Part shown: piece after piece, positions 12,649-62,732 of the stretch
How positions within the stretch are numbered: the stretch's first letter is position 1
Layout of the letters: every line of letters starts with the position of its first letter
Source: Candidatus Vecturithrix granuli
GTDB taxonomy: Bacteria > Moduliflexota > Moduliflexia > Moduliflexales > Moduliflexaceae
NCBI GenBank assembly: GCA_000739535.1
Contig: DF820470.1
Coordinates: 268,511 to 332,510, forward strand
Reading direction: 5' to 3'
DNA length: 64,000 nucleotides
Position numbers and translations under genes: made by a program
The notes under the pieces: generated by a model
What the model was told of the DNA's origin: nothing
Databases searched by the model: none
What the model saw: only the letters and a program-made list of their open reading frames with translations

Positions 12649-12762
12649 GGTAGTGGTTAAATGGTAAGTGATGCCCGCTCGTTGAGCGAAGTCGAAACGA
12701 GCCGCTTATTGTTCCCTTCGACTTCGCTCAGGGAACGCATCACTTACCATTTAACCATTACC
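12649..12762. mobile_element. Non-autonomous transposable element (MITE), family A, with 8-bp target duplication
   Basis: Terminal inverted repeats start GGTAGTGGTTAAATGG and end CCATTTAACCATTACC. The perfect duplication CAACATTA is present at 12641-12648 and 12763-12770. The core contains TCGTTGAGCGAAGTCGAA and CTTCGACTTCGCTCA. It has no coding capacity, so a transposase must act in trans. Confidence 0.85.
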
Positions 12763-12889
12763 CAACATTATTCACCAGGATTGAATATATTCAAAGGAGT
12801 GCCAAAGTTTGTCTTTGGCTGTCAAAGCCACTCCTGTTCTATAGCTAACTCCGCTGCATAATGCTGTAACTACAAGGACCATAAGATTC

Positions 12890-15220
12890 ATGAGTGAATT
12901 TGCCCGGGTGTTAAGTGAGATTATTGAGCAAGGCAAACAAGAGCGAACCTTCAGCATTAAAGAACTGGCTCAACACGCCCGGATTACGCCGAGTTATTTG
13001 AGCAACCTGAAACAATCGAATCGAAAACCGCCAGCGCGCAAAACACTTCATAAACTCACAGAAGGACTGCGGCAGTTATATGTCTCGGAAAGCGATATCC
13101 AGGAACTTATTGAGGCGTACAACCGCCAACACTTCAATTATCAAGAAGAGAGCGGACTGCTGGAATCTCTGATCGACGATTATAAGGAAGAGGGCACACT
13201 GTTTGAACGCGTCAAACAAGGCGTTCAAACAAGAGGACTGGTGCTGAAAAGATCGGTTGATGCACGCGATATCCTGGTGCATGAATCGCAGCCCTCCGGA
13301 TGTTTTGAAGGCGATCATCACGCCTTTATCGCCCAGGCGATCACGCTGCTTGAAATTGCTCATGACCGCGGCGATCTCGGTGGGAAAATTTATATCACTT
13401 GGTTTCATCATGACCTGTTTGACGAAGAGTTTAGCCGGGACCGCAAAAATGTGCGGGATATGCTGCGCAGTTTTCTGTGGGCTGATTCTCCGTTTCAGGC
13501 ATTTCATTTATGGGCCGGAGATATTACCCGCGACATCACCGTGATTGCGGATTTTCTGGCGCAATATATCGGCACATCTCATTGTTTTCTCTATGAAATC
13601 CCACACGGAGAGAGTCTGCCTGAATATCTGGTGATCGAAGGCGTGGGGTTTGTCGAAGCGAAACCCGTGTCAGAAAACCGATATTGGATTCGCCATGAAA
13701 CGGTTGATCACAAAGAGTCTCCTCAGGCGGCTGAACTCCGGGCGCTCATTCAGTATCTTGAATATCTGTTAGGCCCGCCAGAGCAGCGTAAGCCCCTGGT
13801 GAAAACAAACGCCCCTTCCCAAAGATTTTCCGTGACGCCAGTGACGAGAAAACTGGCGGATACGGAAGCGCGCACGATTAAAACCGAACTGCTCCTGATT
13901 AAATCGTCGCTGTCGGCTCGTTTTCGACCGGTTGAACATCTGCGCGCAGTACTGGAAGCGTCTGATGTTCCGTCGGATCGCATTGAAACCTATCTCAAAC
14001 ATCATCTTGAACGGGTGACGGCCCATGAAAAACGACAGCAAAGCGGCAAAGAGCGATCCATTCATGAAAAAAATTTTTTGAGCAAAGAATTTCGAGATCT
14101 TCTCCCCTGCCTTGCGCCATCTGAGGCAGAGCAAGGAAACTTGCTGGCGGCTGAAGCCAAATTATTCCAACAACAGATTCTCCGGGTGGTACAAACGCTC
14201 GCCCATCATCCCAATATCCATGTTGCGCTGGCAGACCAGGAATTTTTGATCCGATTTTCGCTCAGCGATAATACGGCCTTTCTGTCGTTTGATCCGCCCG
14301 GCGCACAGGGAGAGCCTCCCTTAAAACGGGATGATTCATTGGTCCGGGCCTGGACCGAACACCCGGATGTCGTCTATCAACTCCGGCATGAATTCAATAT
14401 GATCTGGAAAGACATCGATCCGCAGTGGCGCACGGATACAGAACAGGGCCGTCGGAATGTGCTCCACTTTTTTATGACAGAACCGCTCAAAGCTTTATTG
14501 GAAGCCGATCTTCCGGAACCAGACTTGTGGGGGTTTGTCAGTGAGTTGATTGACGGGGCAAGTTCATTCGATGCGGAATCCTTTGTGCGAAAAGTGTGCA
14601 CCCATGAACAGGAGGCGGAAAATATGCTCATTGTCAACAATATTTTCCCGCTGTTTACCATGCCGATCGACATTGATCCGTGGAATTCCGGAAGCGCAGT
14701 CCGCACTCGTCAACTCGTCTTTCACGCCCTGGTACAAGAAATAGAGCACATACATCTGATCCTCTCGCAAACACAGCTTGAGACCTATTGGGCTACAGGG
14801 CAATATGGGAGGTATACATTTCCGCACGCCTGGGTCGTCCGGCATGTTCAGGCCTTTCAATCCCTGCTGCTCAAATTTCCGGAAAAAATCACGGTCGCCG
14901 TCATTCCAAGTCGGGAAGAGTTTCCGGTCAATGTTGAAATCATTAACGGCGAATATGTCTCCTTTCAAAAAGCTGCAACGGATGATGAAAAAGGGGGAAT
15001 TATTCTGCATGACAAAGCGGTGGCTGATACGCTGTTAGCATATATCGAGCGCACGATTGCTTCGAGATGTCCAACGCCCTTGAAAGGCGCTCAGAATGTC
15101 GCCCGATGGCTTGAACAACAATTTGACATCCTCAGTGCCCTCCCTTCAAAAGACCTTGAGAATTCAACAAACATACCTGTCCCGATTTCTGGCTCTTATC
15201 CTCCCGTTCATCCGGATTGA
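12890..15220 (+). CDS. Large HTH (XRE-like) protein with unknown C-terminal region
   Basis: This is a 776-residue cytoplasmic protein. Residues about 20-65 form a Cro/C1-type helix-turn-helix (SIKELAQHARITPSYLSNLK). The next 700 residues match nothing I can name. They are mixed alpha/beta with no membrane segments. A region rich in His, Trp and Asp lies near residues 160-215 (ITWFHHDLFDEE, FHLWAGDITRDI). The length is far beyond ordinary repressors, so the C-terminal part may sense a ligand or act as an enzyme. The gene stands alone downstream of two palindromic elements, with a weak AAGGA box about 12 bases before ATG. The neighbours give no clue to its target. Confidence 0.7.
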   Translation: MSEFARVLSEIIEQGKQERTFSIKELAQHARITPSYLSNLKQSNRKPPARKTLHKLTEGLRQLYVSESDIQELIEAYNRQHFNYQEESGLLESLIDDYKEEGTLFERVKQGVQTRGLVLKRSVDARDILVHESQPSGCFEGDHHAFIAQAITLLEIAHDRGDLGGKIYITWFHHDLFDEEFSRDRKNVRDMLRSFLWADSPFQAFHLWAGDITRDITVIADFLAQYIGTSHCFLYEIPHGESLPEYLVIEGVGFVEAKPVSENRYWIRHETVDHKESPQAAELRALIQYLEYLLGPPEQRKPLVKTNAPSQRFSVTPVTRKLADTEARTIKTELLLIKSSLSARFRPVEHLRAVLEASDVPSDRIETYLKHHLERVTAHEKRQQSGKERSIHEKNFLSKEFRDLLPCLAPSEAEQGNLLAAEAKLFQQQILRVVQTLAHHPNIHVALADQEFLIRFSLSDNTAFLSFDPPGAQGEPPLKRDDSLVRAWTEHPDVVYQLRHEFNMIWKDIDPQWRTDTEQGRRNVLHFFMTEPLKALLEADLPEPDLWGFVSELIDGASSFDAESFVRKVCTHEQEAENMLIVNNIFPLFTMPIDIDPWNSGSAVRTRQLVFHALVQEIEHIHLILSQTQLETYWATGQYGRYTFPHAWVVRHVQAFQSLLLKFPEKITVAVIPSREEFPVNVEIINGEYVSFQKAATDDEKGGIILHDKAVADTLLAYIERTIASRCPTPLKGAQNVARWLEQQFDILSALPSKDLENSTNIPVPISGSYPPVHPD

Positions 15221-15422: not shown

Positions 15423-17252
15423 CTACGCTGCGCGTAATACTTGAGTTTCGTGCTCTTCCATGAACTGATTGGTGTAAAGCCGGTAATAATAGCCTTTCTG
15501 CTTCAACAACTCGTGGTGGCTGCCTTGTTCGGTGAGCTTCCCGCGCCGAATCACCAGAATGCGGTCGGCCTCCCGAATGGTAGAAAGCCGGTGTGCGATG
15601 ATAAAGCTTGTGCGATCCTTTAACACATGATGAATCGCATGTTGAATTTTCTGCTCCGTTTCCGTATCCACTGACGAAGTCGCTTCATCGAGCACGAAAA
15701 TGCGAGGATTCGCCAGAATCGCCCGTGCAAAGGAGATTAGTTGCTTTTCGCCGGTTGAAAGGCGATTGCCGCCCTCGCCCACCTCCGTGTCGTAGCCCCG
15801 CTCCATCTTCATGATAAATTCATGGGCGTTGACTAATTTGGCGGCGTTGACGATTTCTTCATCTGTGGCCTCTAAACGTCCGTAACGGATGTTTTCTTTG
15901 ACCGTGCCGCTGAACAGATGCGGCGTTTGCAGCACGTAGCCCAGGTGCGATTGCAGCCAGGCCAGAGAGCGATCACGATAATCAACGCCATCAATCAAAA
16001 TCTGCCCCTCGCTCGGTTCAAAGAAGCGGCAGGCCAGATTGACAATCGTACTCTTTCCAGCGCCGGTTTCGCCAACCAGGGCGATCTTCTCTCCGGCTTT
16101 GACTTCCAGATTGAAGTTTGACAGCACATGTTCCCCTTCCTTATACGCAAAAGACACGTTTTTAAAGGCAAGATTACCCTGGATTTCCGGCCAGGATTCC
16201 GGTTTCGGCTGATACACATCGCCGTAGCGCGCGACTACCTCTGGTTTGTCCGTGATCTCCGGTGGCGTTGAGAGCATCGAAAAAATGCGTTCCGCTGACG
16301 CTTGCGCCGATTGCAGTTCCGCAAACACGCGCGCTAAGTCGCGGATCGGGTCAAAAAACAGCACTGTATAAGACAGGAATGCTGCTAAGGTGCCATAGCT
16401 GATCGTCTCTAGCAAAATCTGCTGGCCGCCGAACCACAGAGCTAATCCTGTGCCGATGCTCGCCAGCGCCAACACCGAGGGTAGATACAACGAGGCTAAG
16501 ACCGCGGCCTGCACCGACGAACGAAACATGGCCCCGGTTTCTTCCTGGAATTCCTGTAAATTTTCTGCTTCGCGCACCAGGGTTTTCGTGGTTTTGGCCC
16601 CGCCAATGCCTTCGTTAAAACCGGCTGTAATCCGGGAATTGATTTTTCGCACCCGGCGCTGCGCTTTCAGGATTTTCTGCTGAAAAAGCAGGCTGATTAC
16701 CACCAGCGGCGGCACAACTATGAGAGTGACTAACGCCAATTTCCAATTCAAACTGAGCATGGCAATCATAATGGCGATCATCATCGTCAGCCCCCAAACC
16801 GAATCCACGACACCCCAGGCCAATACATCGGCCAGACGGCGAATATCTGAGGTCATGCGCGCCATCATCCAGCCCACCGGAGTTTTGTCGTAGTAGGAAA
16901 ACGACAGGTCTTGCAAATGCTGAAACCCTTTACGGCGGATATCGTAGCTGATCCACATATCAATTTTTCCGGCAATGGCTATCAGGGTCCAAACATTCAT
17001 TGCCTGCACCGTGATTATGACAAGATAGATCATCACAAATTTCCACAGTCCCTCAAGGGTGCCGGGGATGATGAAATGATCGATCACATACCTGGTCAGG
17101 AGCGGAAATACCGCATCTATGCTGGCAACTGCGATCATCACGACCGCCAACCCCAGAAAATATTTTTTATAGGGCCTGGCAAATTGAAAGAGTTTCTTCC
17201 ACAAGCCCGGATCAAAGCGTTTGCTGTATTCTTCTTCACGATAGATGCTCAT
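15423..17252 (-). CDS. Heterodimeric ABC exporter subunit (YheH-like, canonical catalytic Glu)
   Basis: A 609-residue half-transporter with a six-helix exporter membrane domain (about residues 20-320) and one nucleotide-binding domain. Walker A GETGAGKST, Walker B VLDEATSSVD and switch IIAHRLST are intact, but the signature is LSTGEKQ instead of LSGGQ. This is the hallmark of one partner in YheH/YheI, BmrCD or TM287/288-type pairs. I set the start at ATG 17252. An upstream extension to 17372 is encoded by the transposed element at 17271-17384. The insertion lies 18 bases upstream of the ATG, and no strong ribosome site is visible there. The exported substrate is unknown; drugs, lipids or peptides are all possible. 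Confidence 0.85.
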   Translation of the reverse strand: MSIYREEEYSKRFDPGLWKKLFQFARPYKKYFLGLAVVMIAVASIDAVFPLLTRYVIDHFIIPGTLEGLWKFVMIYLVIITVQAMNVWTLIAIAGKIDMWISYDIRRKGFQHLQDLSFSYYDKTPVGWMMARMTSDIRRLADVLAWGVVDSVWGLTMMIAIMIAMLSLNWKLALVTLIVVPPLVVISLLFQQKILKAQRRVRKINSRITAGFNEGIGGAKTTKTLVREAENLQEFQEETGAMFRSSVQAAVLASLYLPSVLALASIGTGLALWFGGQQILLETISYGTLAAFLSYTVLFFDPIRDLARVFAELQSAQASAERIFSMLSTPPEITDKPEVVARYGDVYQPKPESWPEIQGNLAFKNVSFAYKEGEHVLSNFNLEVKAGEKIALVGETGAGKSTIVNLACRFFEPSEGQILIDGVDYRDRSLAWLQSHLGYVLQTPHLFSGTVKENIRYGRLEATDEEIVNAAKLVNAHEFIMKMERGYDTEVGEGGNRLSTGEKQLISFARAILANPRIFVLDEATSSVDTETEQKIQHAIHHVLKDRTSFIIAHRLSTIREADRILVIRRGKLTEQGSHHELLKQKGYYYRLYTNQFMEEHETQVLRAA

Positions 17253-17270
17253 ATAACTATAAGAAACTTG

Positions 17271-17384
17271 GGTAGTGGTTAAATAGTAAGTGATGCCCGC
17301 TCGTTGAGCGAAGTCGAAACGAGCCGCTCGCTGTTCCCTTCGACTTCGCTCAGGGAACGCATCATTTACCATTTAACCACTACC
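17271..17384. mobile_element. MITE family A between the two exporter genes
   Basis: It has the same ends as the 12649 copy and lies in the same orientation. Flanks are GAAACTTG (17263-17270) and GAAATTTG (17385-17392), a 7-of-8 target duplication. It separates the two subunit genes of one exporter and supplies a spurious in-frame N-terminal extension to the downstream one. Confidence 0.85.
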
Positions 17385-45979: not shown

Positions 45980-47440
45980 ATGAGTAATTCTTTTCGAAGT
46001 GATGAACCAAAGGAACATACCTTCACGGATGTTGGAAAAGTCAGATATACACCGCTCTACTTACAAGTGAAAGATGTTCTGCTCAAGCGCATCACGAATA
46101 ATGTGTATCAACGCGGCGAGGCAATCCCCAGCGAAGCGACGTTAGCCCGGGAATTTGGTGCCAGTGTTTCGACGATTCGGCAGGCTTTAGCTCTTCTGGC
46201 CGCTGATGGGGTGTTGGTCAAAAAACAAGGCAAAGGCACTTACGTTTCAGAACAAAAAACAACCTTGCGTTTTTTTTCCTGGATGAGCGAGAAGGAACCG
46301 GGAAAAGCCATTCTACTGAGGACAATCGAACGTTTTGAGCAGAAATATCCGATGTGTGTCATTGAAATCCTTCCGAACAGTTTCCAGACTGCCAAAGAGG
46401 ATCTGGTTCATTTGATTGCCAGCGGCAACGCCCCTGACATTGTGCAGATCATGACGCACTGGACCAGTTATTTTGCCGCAATGGGGGCATTGGAATGCCT
46501 GGATGGGCTGCTTAGTCAGGAAAATGTGAACAGCCGGTTTTATGAACAAGACCTCTACGGCGGCCTATTTCAGAACAAACTCTATTCTGTCTCCTGGGGA
46601 CTGGGGCCGTTTGCGCTGATTGCCAATAAAAATATGTTGCGGGAAGTTGGTGTCACGTTTCTGGACTCGCCGATGACGTTAGATGTGTTTTGGGCTGTTT
46701 GCCAGCAGATCGATCAATTTTATCAGGAAAAAGAAAAATATAGCTACGCGCTCAGCCGCTCTTCTGACAAAGAAGCCGATTTTCTGATGCTCTATGGCTT
46801 TTTACAAGCCTTTCACGGCGGATTTACGAATGAAGCAGGTGATATTATCTTTGATTCAACCGCAAACGTTGCCGCGTTTACCTGGCTGCGCGAATTTGTC
46901 AAGAATTGCCGAATTTTTACATCCGATTTACACACGATCCGGGAACGTTTTGCTCATAATGATATTGCCTTTATTTCTGATGGTCCCTGGATTAAATATG
47001 TAATGGAAAATCTGACCGGACGGGAATTCGAGCAGGATTTTACAGTTGTTTTGAACCCCGTGCATGGCGATACGCCCTCCTTTTCCTGGAATTGCAATCT
47101 AGGGCTGGCGATCTGTTCGCAAAGTCCATATAAAGCCTATTCCGCCAAATTCATCGAAGCTCTGACTCATGATCCTGAGATCGTGCGCGACTTTAGCTGG
47201 CGTACTGGAATCCTTCCGGCTCGTAAACATGAACTCGACACGCCTGATTATCACACCGAATTTTTCGAGCCTTATACGCAGCAGTTAGAACATGCAGTCT
47301 GTATCAATGCTCAACATGCGATGTTTACAAAAGCAATGCACTTCTGCGCCGATGCCGCGAGAAGAATCCTTTACGAACAGGTTGATATTGGCCAAGAATT
47401 GCGCGAGAAAACTTATTATTTGAATCTATTATATCATTGA
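45980..47440 (+). CDS. GntR-type regulator fused to a solute-binding domain, copy 1
   Basis: 486 residues, no signal peptide. Residues about 20-90 are a GntR winged helix (YTPLYLQVKDVLLKRITNNV, GEAIPSEATLAREFGASVST, VLVKKQGKGTYVSEQ). Residues about 95-485 are a complete family-1 solute-binding fold (RFFSWMSEKEPGKAILLRTI, GNAPDIVQIMTHWTSYFAAM, AFISDGPWIKYVMENL). The binding fold normally works outside the membrane; here it should be the cytoplasmic effector domain. ATG 45980 has AAGGAG 11 bases upstream and TTGACA at 45934. The paralogue at 58055 has the same architecture. The target genes are not certain. Confidence 0.85.
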   Translation: MSNSFRSDEPKEHTFTDVGKVRYTPLYLQVKDVLLKRITNNVYQRGEAIPSEATLAREFGASVSTIRQALALLAADGVLVKKQGKGTYVSEQKTTLRFFSWMSEKEPGKAILLRTIERFEQKYPMCVIEILPNSFQTAKEDLVHLIASGNAPDIVQIMTHWTSYFAAMGALECLDGLLSQENVNSRFYEQDLYGGLFQNKLYSVSWGLGPFALIANKNMLREVGVTFLDSPMTLDVFWAVCQQIDQFYQEKEKYSYALSRSSDKEADFLMLYGFLQAFHGGFTNEAGDIIFDSTANVAAFTWLREFVKNCRIFTSDLHTIRERFAHNDIAFISDGPWIKYVMENLTGREFEQDFTVVLNPVHGDTPSFSWNCNLGLAICSQSPYKAYSAKFIEALTHDPEIVRDFSWRTGILPARKHELDTPDYHTEFFEPYTQQLEHAVCINAQHAMFTKAMHFCADAARRILYEQVDIGQELREKTYYLNLLYH

Positions 47441-54879: not shown

Positions 54880-54911
54880 TTGACATCTTAAAAGTAATCA
54901 TACGAATAACT
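54880..54911 (+). promoter_or_regulatory. Importer promoter with shared palindromic operator, copy 1
   Basis: TTGACA (54880-54885) is followed by TAAAAGTAATCATACGAATA and ACT (54889-54911). The last 23 bases match 59528-59550 at 21 positions and contain an AATCAT-ACGA-ATAACT near-palindrome. It is a candidate binding site for the GntR/solute-binding regulator encoded nearby. It lies 260 bases upstream of the importer start. Confidence 0.5.
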
Positions 54912-55171
54912 ACTTAAATATCCAGTTATTTGTTGAGATGCATTCTGAGGCTAAACGCTTGACGGCAGAATACTCTGCCGACATTTCGCCAGGTAGGTGA
55001 GATGTGTATGCAACTCATCTCCCCTTTTGGAATGCCTCTGGCAAACTGGATTAACTGCCTTGACATGGGAGGTGATGCATTGGGAATCATATCAAAAATA
55101 TCGTAAGACGTATCCACTATGTTGAGTCATTCCTGTTTCATAACCATCGTGTCAAAAAAGGAGAATATATC

Positions 55172-56161
55172 ATGACAAAGAAACTGATGAGTAGTGTATT
55201 AGTTGGGATATTTCTGCTCAGCATCCCATTCTTTGCAGCGGCAGAAGGGAAACATTTTGAAGATGTGTCAATCATTTTCTTCCCGGGCGGAAGTGAAGGT
55301 GACTCGTTTGCATCAGTTGTGTATCGAGGCGCAAAAGCTGCGGAAGAGGATCTCGGACCAAAGGTTGATTATATGTGGTCAAGTTGGTTGCCGGATAAAA
55401 TGGTCGCCCAATTTAAAGATGCGATTGCGAAAAATCCTGATGGAATCGCGATTATGGGGCACCCAGGGGTTGCCGCATTTCAGCCGTTGGTGGATGAAGC
55501 TATCGCTAAAGGCATTCTTGTGACCAGCCAGAATACCACTCTGCCGGAAATTGAAGCAAAATATAAAGACAAAGGGTTTGGCTATGTTGGACAGGAACTC
55601 TATCCGTCCGGTTTGATGTTAGCCAAAGGCGCTGCTCAACGCGCAGGCTTAAAGGCTGGCGATCGCGCAATGGTTTGGGGGTTGCTTGGTCAGGAGACGC
55701 GTGGTCTTAGAACTAAAGGTTGTATTGACGCCTTGAAAGAAATCGGGGTTGAAGTGGATTATCTCGAAATTTCCGATCAGGTGAACAGCGATGCGGCTTC
55801 AGGCACCCCGGTCATTGCCAGCTATATTGCTGCCCATCCGGATGTCAAAATGATCATCACAGATCATGGCGCTCTGACCGCGACGTTAGGGACTTACTTG
55901 AAGGCCGCGAATAAGAAACCCGGGGAAATTTTCGGGGCCGGGTTCGATTTGAGCGCGGCGACTACTGCGGCTATTAAAGAAGGTTGGGTTGGAGCCGTGC
56001 TCGACCAACAACCCTGGCTGCAAGGCTATCTGCCCATTCTCCAGATCTGTTTAGCCAAAAAATATGGCTTTGCAGGCCTCCATATTGATACAGGAGCCGC
56101 GATCATTGACAACAGCAACATCGATTTTGTGGCTCCGCTTGCAGAACAAGGTATTCGTTAA
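55172..56161 (+). CDS. Ribose/fructose-type ABC importer binding protein
   Basis: 329 residues. A signal peptide (MTKKLMSSVLVGIFLLSIPF, cleavage near AAA) leads to a Peripla_BP_4 type-1 fold: DVSIIFFPGGSEGDSFASVV, AIAKNPDGIAIMGHPGVAAF and GAGFDLSAATTAAIKEGWVG. The ribosome site is AAAAGGAGAATATATC. It starts an operon with a single-domain ATPase and one permease, the FrcBCA arrangement known for fructose, ribose or mannose uptake. The exact sugar is not readable. Confidence 0.88.
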   Translation: MTKKLMSSVLVGIFLLSIPFFAAAEGKHFEDVSIIFFPGGSEGDSFASVVYRGAKAAEEDLGPKVDYMWSSWLPDKMVAQFKDAIAKNPDGIAIMGHPGVAAFQPLVDEAIAKGILVTSQNTTLPEIEAKYKDKGFGYVGQELYPSGLMLAKGAAQRAGLKAGDRAMVWGLLGQETRGLRTKGCIDALKEIGVEVDYLEISDQVNSDAASGTPVIASYIAAHPDVKMIITDHGALTATLGTYLKAANKKPGEIFGAGFDLSAATTAAIKEGWVGAVLDQQPWLQGYLPILQICLAKKYGFAGLHIDTGAAIIDNSNIDFVAPLAEQGIR

Positions 56162-56171
56162 GGATATGAGC

Positions 56172-56213
56172 GATGGACGCCGCCTGGAAACCTGATGATG
56201 GATGGCGTCCATC
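56172..56213 (+). terminator. Attenuator-like hairpin between binding protein and ATPase
   Basis: GATGGACGCC (56172-56181) pairs perfectly with GGCGTCCATC (56204-56213). Without a T-run it may act as a processing or stability element. Confidence 0.5.
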
Positions 56214-56235
56214 ATGACGCTTGAGGGAGAAAACC

Positions 56236-57009
56236 ATGACTGAGAAACATTCGAACACTCCGCTGCTTTCAATGGTCAAAGTCCGTAAATCTTTCGGGGG
56301 AGTAGAAGCGTTGAAAGAGGTGAATTTTACGGTAGGCCGTAATGAAATTGTGGGGCTGGTTGGTGATAACGGAGCAGGAAAATCCACCTTGATTAAACTC
56401 ATCACCGGGGTTCATCCTCCGACCGCAGGGGATATTTACTATAAAGGGCAAAAAATTACGATTCATTCCGTGAAACGTTCGCGTGAACTTGGCATCGAAA
56501 CCGTCTATCAGGAACGCGCGCTCGCGGATCAGCAATCGCTGTGGCGCAATATGTTTGCCGGTCGAGAAATTATTACCAGATTCGGATTTCTCAATGTCAA
56601 GAAACAAAAAGAAGAGACCGACAAACTGCTCCGGGAACACATGGGGTTTACATCGAAAGTGATCACCACGGACTCTCCGGTGTTAAATCTTTCCGGTGGA
56701 GAAAAACAGGGGATTGCAATTGGCAGGGCCTTATATTTCAAGGCGGATTTGATCATTTTGGATGAACCGACCATGGGCTTATCGCTTTCGGAAACGCAAA
56801 AAGTGTTAGATTTTGTGCTGGATATTAAAACTCAGGGCAAATCTGCCATTGTGATCAATCACAGTATCTATCAGGTGTATCCGATCGCAGATCGTTTTGT
56901 GATTTTAGATCGAGGGCAAATTGCCGGAGAATTTCTGAAACAAAATATTTCACAGGATGAATTGATTGACAAAATGATTCGGTTAGCCCGTACGGGAAAA
57001 CTGGATTAA
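56236..57009 (+). CDS. Ribose/fructose-type ABC importer ATPase (single domain)
   Basis: 257 residues. Walker A GDNGAGKST, Q-loop VYQERAL, signature LSGGEKQGIAIGRAL, Walker B LIILDEPTMGLS and switch His in INHSIYQV are all intact. One nucleotide-binding domain means a homodimer, as in FrcA-type systems. I used ATG 56236 (GAGGGAG upstream); the frame from 56221 starts with a TTG inside the ribosome site. Confidence 0.9.
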   Translation: MTEKHSNTPLLSMVKVRKSFGGVEALKEVNFTVGRNEIVGLVGDNGAGKSTLIKLITGVHPPTAGDIYYKGQKITIHSVKRSRELGIETVYQERALADQQSLWRNMFAGREIITRFGFLNVKKQKEETDKLLREHMGFTSKVITTDSPVLNLSGGEKQGIAIGRALYFKADLIILDEPTMGLSLSETQKVLDFVLDIKTQGKSAIVINHSIYQVYPIADRFVILDRGQIAGEFLKQNISQDELIDKMIRLARTGKLD

Positions 57010-57049
57010 ACTTGCACACGGTAATACGAAAACCTGGAGGAGAGCAAGA

Positions 57050-58027
57050 GTGAACATCGCAACATTACGCGCATTCAAATTAGAAATTAGTATTACGGCG
57101 GTCCTGATCGTTGTGTTTCTGTTATTCCTGATCGGGAATCCGAATGTGTTTACTCGCTTTGATATATATTATTCTTTTATGTCAACGATCCCATTTTTTG
57201 GGATCATGGCCCTGTCGCTGACGTTTGTGATCATATTAGGGGAAATGGATTTGTCCTTTCCCTCTGTTCTAGCGTTTTCAGCCTGGATTTTTGGGAAGGC
57301 GTTTGAACACACCGGCAATATCTGGCTGGCTGCCCTGGTCTGCTTTCTGGTCGGAATCGCAGCCGGAGCGTTAAATTCCCTCCTCATCGTGAAGATCGGA
57401 ATTCCCTCTCTGGTCGCCACCATCAGCACCATGTTTTTCTTTCGCGGTCTGGTGAATGTCTTTGCCGAGGGTAAGGGGATTCCCCTGGTAAAAGCCAAAG
57501 AAACCCTGTTTTATCAGTTATGTGTCGGACGCATCCCGATCCCCTTTACTGAAGAGCGCACAATTCCTGCCCAGGCCTTATGGTTTTTTGTGTTAGGCAT
57601 AGTCACCTGGTTTCTTTTAAACCGGCATCGTTTTGGCTCCCATGTCTTGTTTGTCGGAGATAATCCAGAGAGTTCCAAAATGATGGGGATTAATGTTGGC
57701 CTGGTGAAAACTCTGGTGTTTATGCAAATGGGACTTTTTGCAGCGTTTGCCGGAATCTTATGCACTCTGGAGGTGACCTATTTCTGGCCCAGTCAGGGGG
57801 AAGGATACCTCTTAACAACCATTGCCGCGGTGTTTGTGGGCGGCACATCGGTGTTTGGAGGCATGGGAACAATTTACGGCACAATTGTCGGCGCACTAAT
57901 TATCGGATCTTTGGAAGCAGGCATTGTTGCCATTGGCTTAACCGGTTTCTGGACCCGAGTGATTTACGGATTGATCATTATGGTGTCGGTGTCAATTTAT
58001 GCCATCTTATTAAAACGAAAAGGCTGA
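57050..58027 (+). CDS. Ribose/fructose-type ABC importer permease
   Basis: 325-residue BPD_transp_2 permease, eight to ten helices. MALSLTFVIILGEMDLSFPS, GALNSLLIVKIGIPSLVATI and HVLFVGDNPESSKMMGINV are the family marks. It starts with GTG (57050) after a TGGAGGAGAGCAAGA ribosome site. A single permease gene suggests a homodimeric channel. The GntR-fusion gene begins 27 bases later and is likely in the same transcript. Confidence 0.9.
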   Translation: MNIATLRAFKLEISITAVLIVVFLLFLIGNPNVFTRFDIYYSFMSTIPFFGIMALSLTFVIILGEMDLSFPSVLAFSAWIFGKAFEHTGNIWLAALVCFLVGIAAGALNSLLIVKIGIPSLVATISTMFFFRGLVNVFAEGKGIPLVKAKETLFYQLCVGRIPIPFTEERTIPAQALWFFVLGIVTWFLLNRHRFGSHVLFVGDNPESSKMMGINVGLVKTLVFMQMGLFAAFAGILCTLEVTYFWPSQGEGYLLTTIAAVFVGGTSVFGGMGTIYGTIVGALIIGSLEAGIVAIGLTGFWTRVIYGLIIMVSVSIYAILLKRKG

Positions 58028-58054: not shown

Positions 58055-59473
58055 ATGAGCGGCAAAGTGCGTTATAAACCGTTGTATCTCCAGGTAAAGG
58101 ATGTCATCCTGACGCGAATTGAACATGATCAGTATCGTGATGGCGAATCCATTCCCACTGAAGCCAAATTCGCTGAAGAATTTGGCACCAGTGTGACCAC
58201 TATTCGTCAAGCTCTGACCTTATTGGTTAATGATGGCATGTTGATCAAAAAACCAGGGAAAGGCACGTATGTTTCCAAACAGAAGACAAAACTCAGGTTC
58301 TTTTCCTGGATTCCTGAAACCAAACGGGGCGAAGAAATTTTGACCGAAGTGATCACGCGCTTTGAACAAAAATACCCGACGATCACGGTTGAATGCCTTC
58401 CAACCCCGTATAATCAGGCCAGAAAGAACCTGATGCAACTCATTTCCGGCGGCAACGCGCCTGATGTTGTCCACATCCAATCCCATTGGACCAGTTATTT
58501 CGCCTCGATTGGCGCGCTTGAACACCTTGAACCCCTGCTCGACAAAGGGAATTTAGATAACCGGTTTTACGAAAAAGATTTAGTCGCCGGCATGTATCAT
58601 AATAAGCTCTATTCCGTTGCCTGGGGCGTATGTCCGGTCTCCATGGTTATGAATACGTACTTGATCAAACAGGCCGGACTGTATCCGTTGCCTTCTCCGA
58701 TGACGTTGGAGATATTTTTTGAATGCTGTCAGAAACTTGATCATTTTTATGAAGGGGAAGATAAGTATTGTTACGCCTTGAATGTGAGCACAGATCAGGA
58801 ATCGGATTTTCTCACCATTTATTTTTTCCTGCTTGCCTTTCAGGGAAGCTTTGTCAACGATCGGGGGGATGTGATCTTCAATTCTCCGGGGAATGTTGCG
58901 GCCTTTACGTGGCTGCGGAATTTTGTCCGTTCTGTCAGAGTCTTCAAATCCACGATCCATGATATTCGTAAACGCTTTGCCCGCGGCGATATTGCGTTTA
59001 TCGCTGACGGCCCCTGGATTAAATATCAATTAGAAGAATATACCGGCGCGCCGTTTGAGCGAAACTTTGAAGTTGTCTTAAATCCGGTGCAAAATCCAGG
59101 GGCCAAATCGCGTTCCTGGAATTATAATCACGCTCTGGCAATCTGTTCACAAAGCCAATATAAGCATCAGGCGGCTCAATTCATTGACGCCATCACGAAC
59201 GATTATGACATCAGCAATCTCTATTATAGCCAGGTTGGGCATTTACCGGCGAATCGAACCTATCTCTCTGCTCCAATGTATGACTCCGATTTCTTTAATA
59301 CCTATAAGCAGCAGTTGACCCATGCTTCATGTATCAATGCCCATAACGCTTCATTTTCGAAAGCAATGATTTTCTGCACAGATGCTGTCAAAAAAATTTT
59401 GTATGAAGAGCGTGAGATCGAAAAAGAACTGAATGAGAAAGAGTATTACTTAAATATGCTCTATAGTGATTAA
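58055..59473 (+). CDS. GntR-type regulator fused to a solute-binding domain, copy 2
   Basis: 472 residues, cytoplasmic. GntR winged helix at residues 1-75 (YKPLYLQVKDVILTRIEHDQ, GESIPTEAKFAEEFGTSVTT, LIKKPGKGTYVSKQ) and a full family-1 binding fold after it (RFFSWIPETKRGEEILTEVI, GNAPDVVHIQSHWTSYFASI, AFIADGPWIKYQLEEY). It is homologous to the 45980 protein along its whole length. It sits between two importers whose promoters share a 23-base motif, so it is the likely local regulator of both. AAAAGGACGGACA precedes the ATG. Confidence 0.87.
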   Translation: MSGKVRYKPLYLQVKDVILTRIEHDQYRDGESIPTEAKFAEEFGTSVTTIRQALTLLVNDGMLIKKPGKGTYVSKQKTKLRFFSWIPETKRGEEILTEVITRFEQKYPTITVECLPTPYNQARKNLMQLISGGNAPDVVHIQSHWTSYFASIGALEHLEPLLDKGNLDNRFYEKDLVAGMYHNKLYSVAWGVCPVSMVMNTYLIKQAGLYPLPSPMTLEIFFECCQKLDHFYEGEDKYCYALNVSTDQESDFLTIYFFLLAFQGSFVNDRGDVIFNSPGNVAAFTWLRNFVRSVRVFKSTIHDIRKRFARGDIAFIADGPWIKYQLEEYTGAPFERNFEVVLNPVQNPGAKSRSWNYNHALAICSQSQYKHQAAQFIDAITNDYDISNLYYSQVGHLPANRTYLSAPMYDSDFFNTYKQQLTHASCINAHNASFSKAMIFCTDAVKKILYEEREIEKELNEKEYYLNMLYSD

Positions 59474-59503: not shown

Positions 59504-59550
59504 TTGACAAGAAAAAAAATTGTCCTGTAAAAGTAGTCATACGAATGACT
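59504..59550 (+). promoter_or_regulatory. Importer promoter with shared palindromic operator, copy 2
   Basis: TTGACA (59504-59509) is followed, 17 bases on, by a weak GTAAAA. TAAAAGTAGTCATACGAATG and ACT occupy 59528-59550. The inner AGTCAT-ACGA-ATGACT is a perfect inverted repeat. The motif overlaps the -10 and start region, a position fit for repression. Compare 54880-54911. Confidence 0.55.
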
Positions 59551-59672
59551 TATAAAAGGGAGGTGGTGGTGCGCGTCATTTACAAAAGCCTCTTTGTGTT
59601 CGCTGGTTGCACTATCAAGACAGAAACAATAATATCATGGGATAACAAGTTGTTATCAAGGAGGGTGTTAGT

Positions 59673-60971
59673 ATGAAACGTCATTATATCTTTGCTCTGA
59701 TGATTGTTCTTGTCATGGCAGCAATGCCTGTGTTGGCTCAACCGACCTTAACATTTTGGAATATGCCGTTCAATACGCAGGAAGTTTCGCCTGAATACGT
59801 GGCATGGTGGGAAGAAAATATCGCTAAAGCCTTGCCTGATATTCAAGCCGATACGTATTATGGCCCTGGCACTTACGATGCACAGCGCAAAAATTTTGTT
59901 GTGCAAGCCAAAACTGGAAAACCCGATGTGATTGAAGGACTGGTCGAAGATCTCACGGTCTATACTAAACAGGATATTATTCTTGATCTGACCGAACATT
60001 TTAATAATTGGGATGAGAAAGATCAGTTTGTCGAAAGTACCCTGAAACCATTAATCGTTGATGGCAAGCTCTACGGACTGCCTTATAATACCAACGCCAG
60101 GGTGCTTTTGTATCGCAAGGATCTCTTTGAACAATATGGCCTCGAAGTGCCGAAGACCTGGGATGAATATGTCAAAGTAGCTTCCGTAATCACCGAAAAA
60201 ACCAATAAAGAAGTCTTCGGAACCTATCTCTGTACCAAAGTCGGTGATCCCAGAGCCTATCAGGAATTTGTGTCCTGGTTCTTCCAGGTGAGCCATAAGG
60301 CCCCTGTGTTTAAGAGAGATGCTGAGGGAAAATGGGCGGTAAACGCCACAGCCGAACAGTTTGCGCAGGTGCTCAAACTGTATCAAGAGCTTGTGTTTGC
60401 GAATGCGGATTTCCCGGCGCTTGATCCAAATCAACGCGGTAATGGCTGGCCCGAAGAGGATAACGGCTATGTCGCCGGAAAATGGGCCATGGTGCCGATG
60501 GGGCCATGGATTTGGGGACATCGTGGAGACAACGAAACCGCACGCGCGATTCTTGAAGAAAAAACTGGAATTGCCTCTCTGCCCGTTGTTGAAGGCGGTG
60601 TATTGGCGACGTACCTGGAAGTCAAACCGATCATGGTGAATAAATATTCGAAAAATATTGAACAAGCCTGGGAAATGGCAAAATTCATCACCTCCCGCGA
60701 CGCTATGGCTGGTTGGGCCTGGGATTCCGGATTTATTCCCGCCCGCAAGGATGTGTCGGAATTAGAACAATTCAAGAATAGCTGGTGGCAGCAAGGTTTC
60801 AGCGCGCAGTTGCCGAATGCGGTCGCCTTATCGCCAGTTAACTGGCTGCCTCCGCAACAATCAATGCTGGAAGCCGTCAACATGGTCATCTATCAAAAGA
60901 ATACGCCTGAAGAAGCCGGAAAATGGCTGTACGATGAACTGGTCAAACAGGCCGAAGAAGGATTGCTCTAA
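59673..60971 (+). CDS. Sugar ABC importer substrate-binding protein (family 1)
   Basis: 432 residues. A signal peptide (MKRHYIFALMIVLVMAAMPV, cleavage after LAQ) leads to a family-1 fold with YGLPYNTNARVLLYRKDLFE, PKTWDEYVKVASVIT and KWAMVPMGPWIWGHRG. GCAAGGAGGGTGTTAGT-type ribosome site. The first gene of a three-gene importer without an ATPase. Its fold is shared by the ligand domain of the GntR fusion gene directly upstream, which suggests that the two bind the same or related sugar on opposite sides of the membrane. Confidence 0.88.
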   Translation: MKRHYIFALMIVLVMAAMPVLAQPTLTFWNMPFNTQEVSPEYVAWWEENIAKALPDIQADTYYGPGTYDAQRKNFVVQAKTGKPDVIEGLVEDLTVYTKQDIILDLTEHFNNWDEKDQFVESTLKPLIVDGKLYGLPYNTNARVLLYRKDLFEQYGLEVPKTWDEYVKVASVITEKTNKEVFGTYLCTKVGDPRAYQEFVSWFFQVSHKAPVFKRDAEGKWAVNATAEQFAQVLKLYQELVFANADFPALDPNQRGNGWPEEDNGYVAGKWAMVPMGPWIWGHRGDNETARAILEEKTGIASLPVVEGGVLATYLEVKPIMVNKYSKNIEQAWEMAKFITSRDAMAGWAWDSGFIPARKDVSELEQFKNSWWQQGFSAQLPNAVALSPVNWLPPQQSMLEAVNMVIYQKNTPEEAGKWLYDELVKQAEEGLL

Positions 60972-60977
60972 TCTGAA

Positions 60978-61012
60978 GAGAAACCGGGTTTTTTCCCAAA
61001 AACCCGGTTTCT
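60978..61012 (+). terminator. Terminator hairpin between binding protein and permease
   Basis: GAAACCGGGTTTTT pairs with AAAAACCCGGTTTC. It is placed inside the operon, seven bases after the binding-protein stop, so partial termination would make the binding protein more abundant than the permeases. Confidence 0.7.
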
Positions 61013-61034
61013 GATTTTGAGGAGACTGCATCGC

Positions 61035-61901
61035 ATGGGGAAAACGTGGACGGGTTATCTGCTGTTTTTGCCAACCATCCTTGTGTTGGGGATATTAATT
61101 CTGCTTCCCATTATCGAGGCCATGGGTTGGGCGTTTACAGATTTCAATGTCCTCAAAGATGTCACAAAATACATTGGCCTGGGCAATTTTGCTGCCATGA
61201 ACAAGGATGCGACCTTCTGGACCGCGTTGTTCAACTCGCTGCTGTTGACGACGGTCGTCATTCTGCTGCAATATATTTTGGGCTTGGGACTGGCGGTCAC
61301 CCTCAAACAAAAAGTTCCCGGGATTGGCATTTTCCGCAGCGTCGTGATGGCAAGCTGGGTGATTCCGGTCATTAGCACGGTCATTATGTTCCGGTTCATG
61401 TCTCAGCCGGATTACGGGTTCTTCAATATTCTTTTGGAAAAAATCGGATTAGGAAAATATGCGACATATTGGTTCGGAAGTCTTGCCGGGGCTTTACCGA
61501 TGATCATTATCATGCACCTATGGCGGAACATCCCTTTCTATGGGATTGGGCTGCTGGCGGCGATGCAAGCCATCCCGAATGATTATTATGAAGCCGCTGA
61601 GATTGATGGCGCAAGCGCCTGGCAAAAATTTTTATATATTACTTTTCCCGGCGTCAGATATATGTCGATGGTGATCATTACCATTCATGTGATTTGGACT
61701 TTCAATAACTTCGATTTTATTTTCCTTTCAACCGGCGGTGGTCCCGTCAATGTCACACAGGTACTGCCCGTCTATATTTACATCCAATCCTGGCATCATT
61801 TTGCCATGGGGTATGCTTCCGCCATTGGCCTCGTCATGCTGCTGATTTTACTCGTGTTTTCCTTTATCTATATGCGTTTCAACAAGGAACCAGAGGTGTA
61901 A
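61035..61901 (+). CDS. Sugar ABC importer permease (MalF-like)
   Basis: 288 residues, six helices. EAA loop IPNDYYEAAEIDGASAWQKF and FLSTGGGPVNVTQVLPVYI near the end. I chose ATG 61035. The open frame from 61017 starts with TTG within the GAGGAG ribosome site itself. It pairs with the 61905 protein. Confidence 0.88.
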   Translation: MGKTWTGYLLFLPTILVLGILILLPIIEAMGWAFTDFNVLKDVTKYIGLGNFAAMNKDATFWTALFNSLLLTTVVILLQYILGLGLAVTLKQKVPGIGIFRSVVMASWVIPVISTVIMFRFMSQPDYGFFNILLEKIGLGKYATYWFGSLAGALPMIIIMHLWRNIPFYGIGLLAAMQAIPNDYYEAAEIDGASAWQKFLYITFPGVRYMSMVIITIHVIWTFNNFDFIFLSTGGGPVNVTQVLPVYIYIQSWHHFAMGYASAIGLVMLLILLVFSFIYMRFNKEPEV

Positions 61902-61904
61902 CCC

Positions 61905-62732
61905 ATGAAGAAGTTCCAGCACTATCTCATGACCTACTTCGTGTTACTGCTCTATTTCTCGTTTCTTCTGCTCCCGATGATCTGGATTATCTATAGTTCT
62001 TTCAGAACCCAGGATGCCATTTTCAGCGGACGCATCTTATCTGCGCTGAATGAATTCACACTGGAAAACTATCGCAAAATTCTGGCAGTGAGCGCTTTTT
62101 CCAAAACGATCATGAATTCGTTCAAAATTGCCACTGGCGTCACCCTGATTACTATGCTTCTGGCGACCATGGGGGGCTATGGCTTAAGCCGGTATCAGGT
62201 ACGAGGACGGGATTTTTTTATTCTGGGGATTTTTTCCTCACAAATGTTTCCGCCAGTGCTGATTTTGCTGCCGCTCTATACCTGGCTGTTATCCCTCGGT
62301 TTCGTGGATACATATCCGGGCATTATTCTGGCGCAAACCATGCTGTCGCTGCCGTTTACGGTCTGGATGCTGAAAGGCTATTTTGATAATACCCCGCGGG
62401 AGTTGGATGAGGCTGCCCGCATTGACGGGTGCAGCACGTTTGGGATCCTCTTTCGCATCATTTTTCCCATCGCGGCGCCGGGTATTCTGGTGGCAGCGTT
62501 TTTTGCCTTCATGGTCTCCTGGGGCGATTATCTGATTGTGTCGGTGTTAGCGCAGAGTAATGCTACAGCCACGATGCCCTTTAGTCTGGCTCGTATTTCC
62601 AGCAGTTTACGCGTCAAATGGGGCGATGTCGCTGCTGCTGCGGTGCTAACAATTGTTCCGACCTTAATTTTGTTTACCCTGGTTCAAAAATGGCTGGTGG
62701 AAGGGTTAACCGCCGGCGCTGTGAAACAATAA
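61905..62732 (+). CDS. Sugar ABC importer permease (MalG-like)
   Basis: 275 residues with six helices. EAA loop TPRELDEAARIDGCSTFGIL is a perfect family match. It ends LVQKWLVEGLTAGAVKQ, the usual MalG terminus. It starts three bases after the partner stop. No ATPase gene follows, so a MalK/MsmK-type ATPase from elsewhere must energise the pair. Confidence 0.88.
   Translation: MKKFQHYLMTYFVLLLYFSFLLLPMIWIIYSSFRTQDAIFSGRILSALNEFTLENYRKILAVSAFSKTIMNSFKIATGVTLITMLLATMGGYGLSRYQVRGRDFFILGIFSSQMFPPVLILLPLYTWLLSLGFVDTYPGIILAQTMLSLPFTVWMLKGYFDNTPRELDEAARIDGCSTFGILFRIIFPIAAPGILVAAFFAFMVSWGDYLIVSVLAQSNATATMPFSLARISSSLRVKWGDVAAAAVLTIVPTLILFTLVQKWLVEGLTAGAVKQ

Follow-up and report, generated by a model that had tools for sequence, protein, structure and literature searches.

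Among described regulators, the closest relatives of the protein considered here lie in the GntR family and among transcription factors with binding-protein-like effector domains. In the HutC subfamily (NagR/YvoA, DasR) a GntR winged helix is followed by a C-terminal effector domain known as UTRA, and sugar uptake genes are placed under small-molecule control. Members of the AraR subfamily join the GntR winged helix to a LacI-type effector domain of the PBP-I fold, and the LacI/GalR proteins are sugar repressors in which a LacI helix-turn-helix precedes an effector domain of the periplasmic-binding-protein fold. HutC-type operators follow the consensus GT-N4-AC, according to the accessible part of PMC4494728. 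SgrR/DsvR are portrayed in the accessible sources as a natural fusion of a helix-turn-helix with a solute-binding domain (SBP_bac_5), and SgrR is reported to repress itself (PMC13060122, accessible part). The accessible text of PMC9602780 states in general terms that solute-binding protein (SBP) domains occur in transcriptional regulators, and that of PMC6079105 describes engineered, ligand-responsive regulators built from a binding protein and a bacterial DNA-binding domain. No description of a GntR-SBP_bac_1/8 regulator was found in the open literature, most subscription journals lying outside the search; SgrR/DsvR, as presented in the accessible sources, are the nearest published parallel found.

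The present analysis concerns a window of 64,000 nucleotides from the genome of Candidatus Vecturithrix granuli, in which genes are named by their start positions (Table 1). The product of gene 58055 belongs to the GntR family by its N-terminal winged helix (PF00392, residues 10-73, E 1.2e-15, 57.3 bits against a cut-off of 27) and to the SBP_bac_1/8 families by its C-terminal part (SBP_bac_8 at residues 99-411, E 1.4e-27, 97.7 bits; SBP_bac_1 at residues 94-382, E 5.1e-17, 63.2 bits). Reading of the sequence places the helix-turn-helix at the very N-terminus, with no signal peptide for export ahead of the GntR domain at residue 10, and the receptor domain should therefore be cytoplasmic. The winged helix is closest to HutC-type models, HutC-type NCBIfam matches being N-terminal only and far below cut-off, but the place of UTRA is taken by a CUT1-type SBP domain, a kind of receptor that usually acts on the outer side of the membrane: Pfam gives GntR and SBP_bac_1/8 only, and no UTRA, in 58055 and 45980. 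The helix also matches that of AraR, whereas the effector domain is of the SBP_bac_1 (PBP-II) rather than the LacI/Peripla_BP type, with no Pfam match to Peripla_BP in 58055. SgrR/DsvR, as described in the accessible sources, differ in both DNA-binding domain and SBP family (Pfam finds no SBP_bac_5 in 58055), and LacI/GalR proteins are unrelated to 58055 on both counts. The engineered factors, in the accessible account, are synthetic, whereas the GntR-SBP fusions are a natural and conserved counterpart.

Table 1. Features of the window discussed in the text.
Feature	Coordinates	Strand	Description
Paralogous GntR-SBP regulator	45980-47440	+	486 aa from its ATG; architecture as 58055
TTGACA box	54880..54885	+	17 bp before CUT2-operon operator; read from sequence
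Operator 1 (predicted)	54893..54918	+	Core 54897-54910 ATCATACGAATAAC; upstream of CUT2 operon
CUT2 sugar-binding protein	55172..56161	+	Peripla_BP_4; signal-peptide-like N-terminus
CUT2 ATPase	56221..57009	+	Single ABC domain, 262 aa
CUT2 permease	57050..58027	+	BPD_transp_2
GntR-SBP fusion regulator	58055-59473	+	472 aa, ATG start
TTGACA box	59504..59509	+	32 bp before CUT1-operon operator; read from sequence
Operator 2 (predicted)	59532..59557	+	Core 59536-59549 GTCATACGAATGAC; upstream of CUT1 operon
CUT1 sugar-binding protein	59673..60971	+	SBP_bac_1/8; signal-peptide-like N-terminus
CUT1 permease 1	61017..61901	+	BPD_transp_1
CUT1 permease 2	61905..62732	+	BPD_transp_1

Gene order and neighbouring genes

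A CUT2-type importer (55172-58027) ends 27 bp before the start of 58055, which, by this spacing, is probably the last gene of the CUT2 operon. A CUT1-type importer (59673-62732), whose operon lacks an ATPase gene, begins 199 bp after it. The preliminary description of a GntR/solute-binding fusion set between two importers is borne out by Pfam and the ORF map, as is its remark that 59673, directly downstream, shares a fold family with the regulator, whose C-terminal domain matches the same Pfam families; the proposed paralogy with 45980 likewise holds, with 56% identity over 468 aa and a shared architecture. By inspection, 45980 has a pyroglutamyl-peptidase-like gene and chemoreceptors as neighbours, and it lies some 8-12 kb from the two predicted operators.

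Matches to NCBIfam SBP and permease models all fell far short of their cut-offs and indicated no substrate. Downstream of the CUT1 operon (63362 onward; L120:872-3020, 12666-14045) lie genes for a Fucose_iso_C-type isomerase, with no PDB relative at 1e-5, an AraD protein, which exceeds its NCBIfam cut-off, and an FGGY kinase, together suggesting pentose or deoxysugar use. The isomerase and AraD genes allow the weak guess that a pentose or deoxysugar is also the ligand of the regulator; this clue is a hint only, because the 300 bp preceding 63362 contain no operator site.

Other features of the region may be recorded here. Just beyond the window end, L120:3543-6215 (G000:C14:334543-337215) encodes a chemoreceptor-type protein in which an MCP domain is followed by a C-terminal Peripla_BP_4, an order that would make its sugar-binding-protein domain cytoplasmic, in parallel to the fusion regulators. 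A 23-bp repeat occurs in four window copies (12678, 17300, 32907 and 63102; 0.00 expected in shuffles), one of them in the N-terminal codons of ORF 15423-17372, and is perhaps part of a longer element. At 12890-15220 there is a gene for a large helix-turn-helix protein, to which L121:624-2870 on another contig (C13) appears similar by eye; with genome bin contamination at 10.75%, this paralogue argues that the window contig belongs to the genome.

A shared operator-like site

Comparison of upstream regions revealed near-identical 26-bp stretches at 54893 and 59532; RTCATACGAATRAC is present upstream of both importer operons. The second site is a perfect inverted repeat, AGTCAT-N4-ATGACT, and 0.00 such pairs are expected by chance within the window. 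The relaxed pattern RTCATNCGNATRAS, broadened only after the orthologue sites had been seen, occurs at six distinct places (eight strand hits) in the 8,384,694-base genome, against 1 and 0 for the reversed control. Two of these places are upstream of the window importers and four (L018, L036, L121, L122) are within ORFs of 289-845 aa, leaving the two importer promoters as the only intergenic ones. Allowing two mismatches, a wider scan of the same genome gave an uninformative 139 matches against 109 in the reversed control. The two-site pattern was not found before 45980, 58055 or 63362 in the window.

The footprint pattern, defined solely by the two window sites, was sought in the 150 bp upstream of the regulator and compared with 2000 dinucleotide shuffles. 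It is present in all three complete orthologous loci from other genomes: with no mismatch in L144 and one in L040 (0/2000 shuffles as good in each case), and with two in L041 (7/2000). L144 bears the exact 14-mer of window operator 2. The truncated locus L145 has no upstream sequence and so lay outside this test. The pattern was absent from the control regions, which were those before window 58055 and 63362, noted above, and before the CUT2 SBP gene in each of L040, L041 and L144. The recognition helices of 58055, 45980, L040 and L041 are nearly identical, and operator-like sites were also found in the L040 and L041 genomes outside the regulator loci. Conservation of the site upstream of orthologues and its intergenic uniqueness uphold, at the level of sequence, the proposed regulatory link of 58055 with both importers.

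A perfect TTGACA lies 17-44 bp upstream of the core in 5/5 sites, at 32-33 bp in three of them; operator 1 differs from the other sites in its promoter geometry, the hexamer being merely 17 bp upstream. This would place the operator at or beside the start site, an arrangement known from simple repression, and the geometry appears to fit steric repression together with autoregulation. At several of the five sites the second hexamer matches TATAAT poorly, and a generic promoter scan lists neither window TTGACA box.

Occurrence of the fusion and its transporter partners

Among 59 genomes searched, the own genome included, a match at E 1e-20 was obtained in the own genome only, and a four-sequence profile at 1e-45 matched one of 385 genomes. 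Scanning of genome contigs gave, among 80 kept of 164 confirmed candidates, two full-length matches, L040 (uncultured Spirochaetes, 52% identity) and L041 (48%). In the class of L040's genome there were 13 matches in 10 of 394 genomes at 1e-45; they include L144 (57%) and L145, which a contig end cuts short. A 14-sequence profile at 1e-30 matched 71/297 and 46/385 genomes, mostly in the SBP part only; among the matches listed, 17 in the 297-genome set and three in the 385-genome set start within the first 13 model positions, and five new fusions (L202-L206) came from this profile. The collection comprises 20 complete fusions and one truncated: the two window proteins, L040, L041 and L144; L134, L142 and L146 in subfamily B; L147-L153 in C; L202, L203 and L206 in D; and L204 and L205 (the letters A-D are labels coined in the present analysis). 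Both domains exceed Pfam cut-offs in all 17 proteins scanned (two from the window, 10 and five others); L040, L041 and L151 are counted as fusions on full-length alignment. L151, 99.8% identical to L150, was omitted from the profile alignment, Pfam scan, tree and conservation count, and the truncated L145 from the Pfam scan and conservation count. The GntR-SBP design thus recurs in spirochaete-type genomes.

The importer partner varies with the subfamily. In subfamily A, all five loci adjoining a transporter have a CUT2 importer (window 58055, L040, L041, L144 and L207, the last being the full contig of L145). The gene order is regulator, CUT2 SBP, ATPase, permease in L040, L144 and L207, several neighbours being assigned by eye, and in L041 the CUT2 operon lies on the far side of a URO-D gene. 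The importers of L040 and L144 are 62-78% alike; the window importer shares 31-33% (ATPase) and 28-29% (permease) with them, and this distant relationship makes a single conserved ligand doubtful. In subfamily C the regulator is followed immediately, by eye, by a CUT1 SBP and two permeases in 7/7 loci, which usually include a sulfatase, so that the adjacency pointed out for 58055 and 59673 is a recurrent arrangement. A divergent CUT1 SBP, with permeases downstream, accompanies the regulator in subfamily D loci L203 and L206.

Two observations concern these loci. Genes of the URO-D family (PF01208) flank L040, L041, L144, L134 and L146, some as judged by eye; the own genome has 33 URO-D matches, none within the window. 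In four of the seven subfamily C loci (L149, L150, its near-copy L151, and L152) a different motif, GGTATCTAT, was seen, in the palindrome-like form GGTATCTAT(A/G)..ATGAA, placed in front of either the regulator gene or the CUT1 SBP gene (L149:5852, L150/L151 regulator upstreams, L152:7427); it is likely a second operator type.

Proposed mechanism and alternative readings

The reading preferred here, to which we give a probability of about 0.7, is that 58055 represses both importers and is released by the imported sugar or its intracellular product. The protein would act as a one-component sugar sensor, made of a GntR winged helix and a cytoplasmic CUT1-type SBP domain. A dimer would bind the inverted repeat GTCATnCGnATGAC, predicted to overlap or closely follow the promoter of the CUT2 operon, which contains the regulator's own gene, and that of the CUT1 operon, and would block transcription of both. 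Filling of the receptor domain by the imported sugar or intracellular product would move the domains and free the DNA, and both importers would then be made. Binding of the site by 58055, dimerisation, repression and a sugar as ligand are what we infer from the architecture, gene order and sites described above. Counting against a repressor of this kind, GTCATnCGnATGAC departs from the GT-N4-AC consensus of HutC-type operators cited above. The differing promoter geometry of operator 1, the promoter scan, the lack of a site before the catabolic genes from 63362 on and the distance between the window importers and those of the orthologues also count against it.

The preliminary description had allowed for a model in which one sugar is recognised both by the cytoplasmic domain of 58055 and by the extracellular 59673; in its strict form, the two would have equivalent pockets. 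Membership of common Pfam families, adjacency of the genes, the shared operator and the 7/7 subfamily C loci speak for this, but the argument from a shared fold found no support in closer comparison. Plain BLASTP between the two gave nothing meaningful (best E 0.50), and a profile alignment gave about 15% identity. In that alignment, a weak comparison, W85, W145, W190, W321 and W355 of 58055, which we take from the SBP_bac_1 family to line the pocket, stand opposite M31, D93, Y138, W (of GPWI) and Y, so that only one of the five likely pocket tryptophans is a W in 59673. W85 and W190 are >90% conserved among 14 fusions, consistent with a working sugar site in the regulators; structure models (pLDDT 50.9 for the regulator from four sequences, 37.3 for 59673 alone) did not reach a quality at which pockets could be compared. 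When 15 regulator SBP domains and eight CUT1 SBPs are placed in one tree, the regulators form one side of a branch (99/98), with 58055 and 45980 as sisters (93/98), and the receptor domain of the 15 compared fusions probably has a single origin. The AU test rejects a tree that unites 58055 and 59673 (p 0.0002, with the caveat of long branches); the gene now next door is therefore not the source of the receptor domain. Moreover, the nearest relatives, in subfamily A, are partnered by CUT2 importers, and the CUT2 SBP, being of the Peripla_BP type, has a different fold. Recognition of one sugar by 58055 and 59673 through equivalent pockets is thus decidedly improbable.

It is unlikely, though the most serious of the alternatives, that paralogue 45980, alone or in competition with 58055, binds both operators as a two-input switch with different ligands. 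Its near-identical recognition helix, the 56% identity and its place as the sister of 58055 would allow this, and the lack of a site upstream of 45980 means that it may act at the shared sites only; however, the gene lies about 8-12 kb off, in neither operon, and in the orthologous loci the site precedes the regulator's own gene, a position that suits autoregulation by the regulator of each locus. An activator role for 58055, or a switch from repressor to activator, would accord with the weak second hexamers and with the promoter scan, which lists no promoter at the sites, but appears improbable, as the site is downstream of TTGACA in 5/5 promoters and never upstream, and many characterised GntR regulators of sugar use are repressors. 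That the similar sites are remnants of a copied promoter, with no regulator involved, is barely credible: the two promoters are <5 kb apart and alike across 26 bp, but the same core precedes orthologous regulators in three other genomes with different importers.

Beyond repression of both importers by 58055, a wider reading is offered tentatively, at somewhat less than even odds. Cytoplasmic SBP repressors, whose receptor domain probably arose once among the 15 fusions compared, may have been paired repeatedly with different ABC importers. In subfamily A the inside sensor (CUT1-type, PBP-II) and the outside receptor (CUT2-type, PBP-I) would have unrelated folds and yet read one imported compound, or its product, from either side of the membrane. 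In the window, such a sensor would have gained control of a further importer, of the CUT1 type, by way of a second operator.

Many ABC sugar importers have neither substrate nor regulator assigned. An effector domain that is a soluble sugar-binding protein would make direct ligand screening feasible, and a known operator would let the importers of such a regulator be assigned. The GntR-SBP fusion may be regarded as a natural version of biosensors that join a receptor to a DNA-binding domain, with its predicted operator included.
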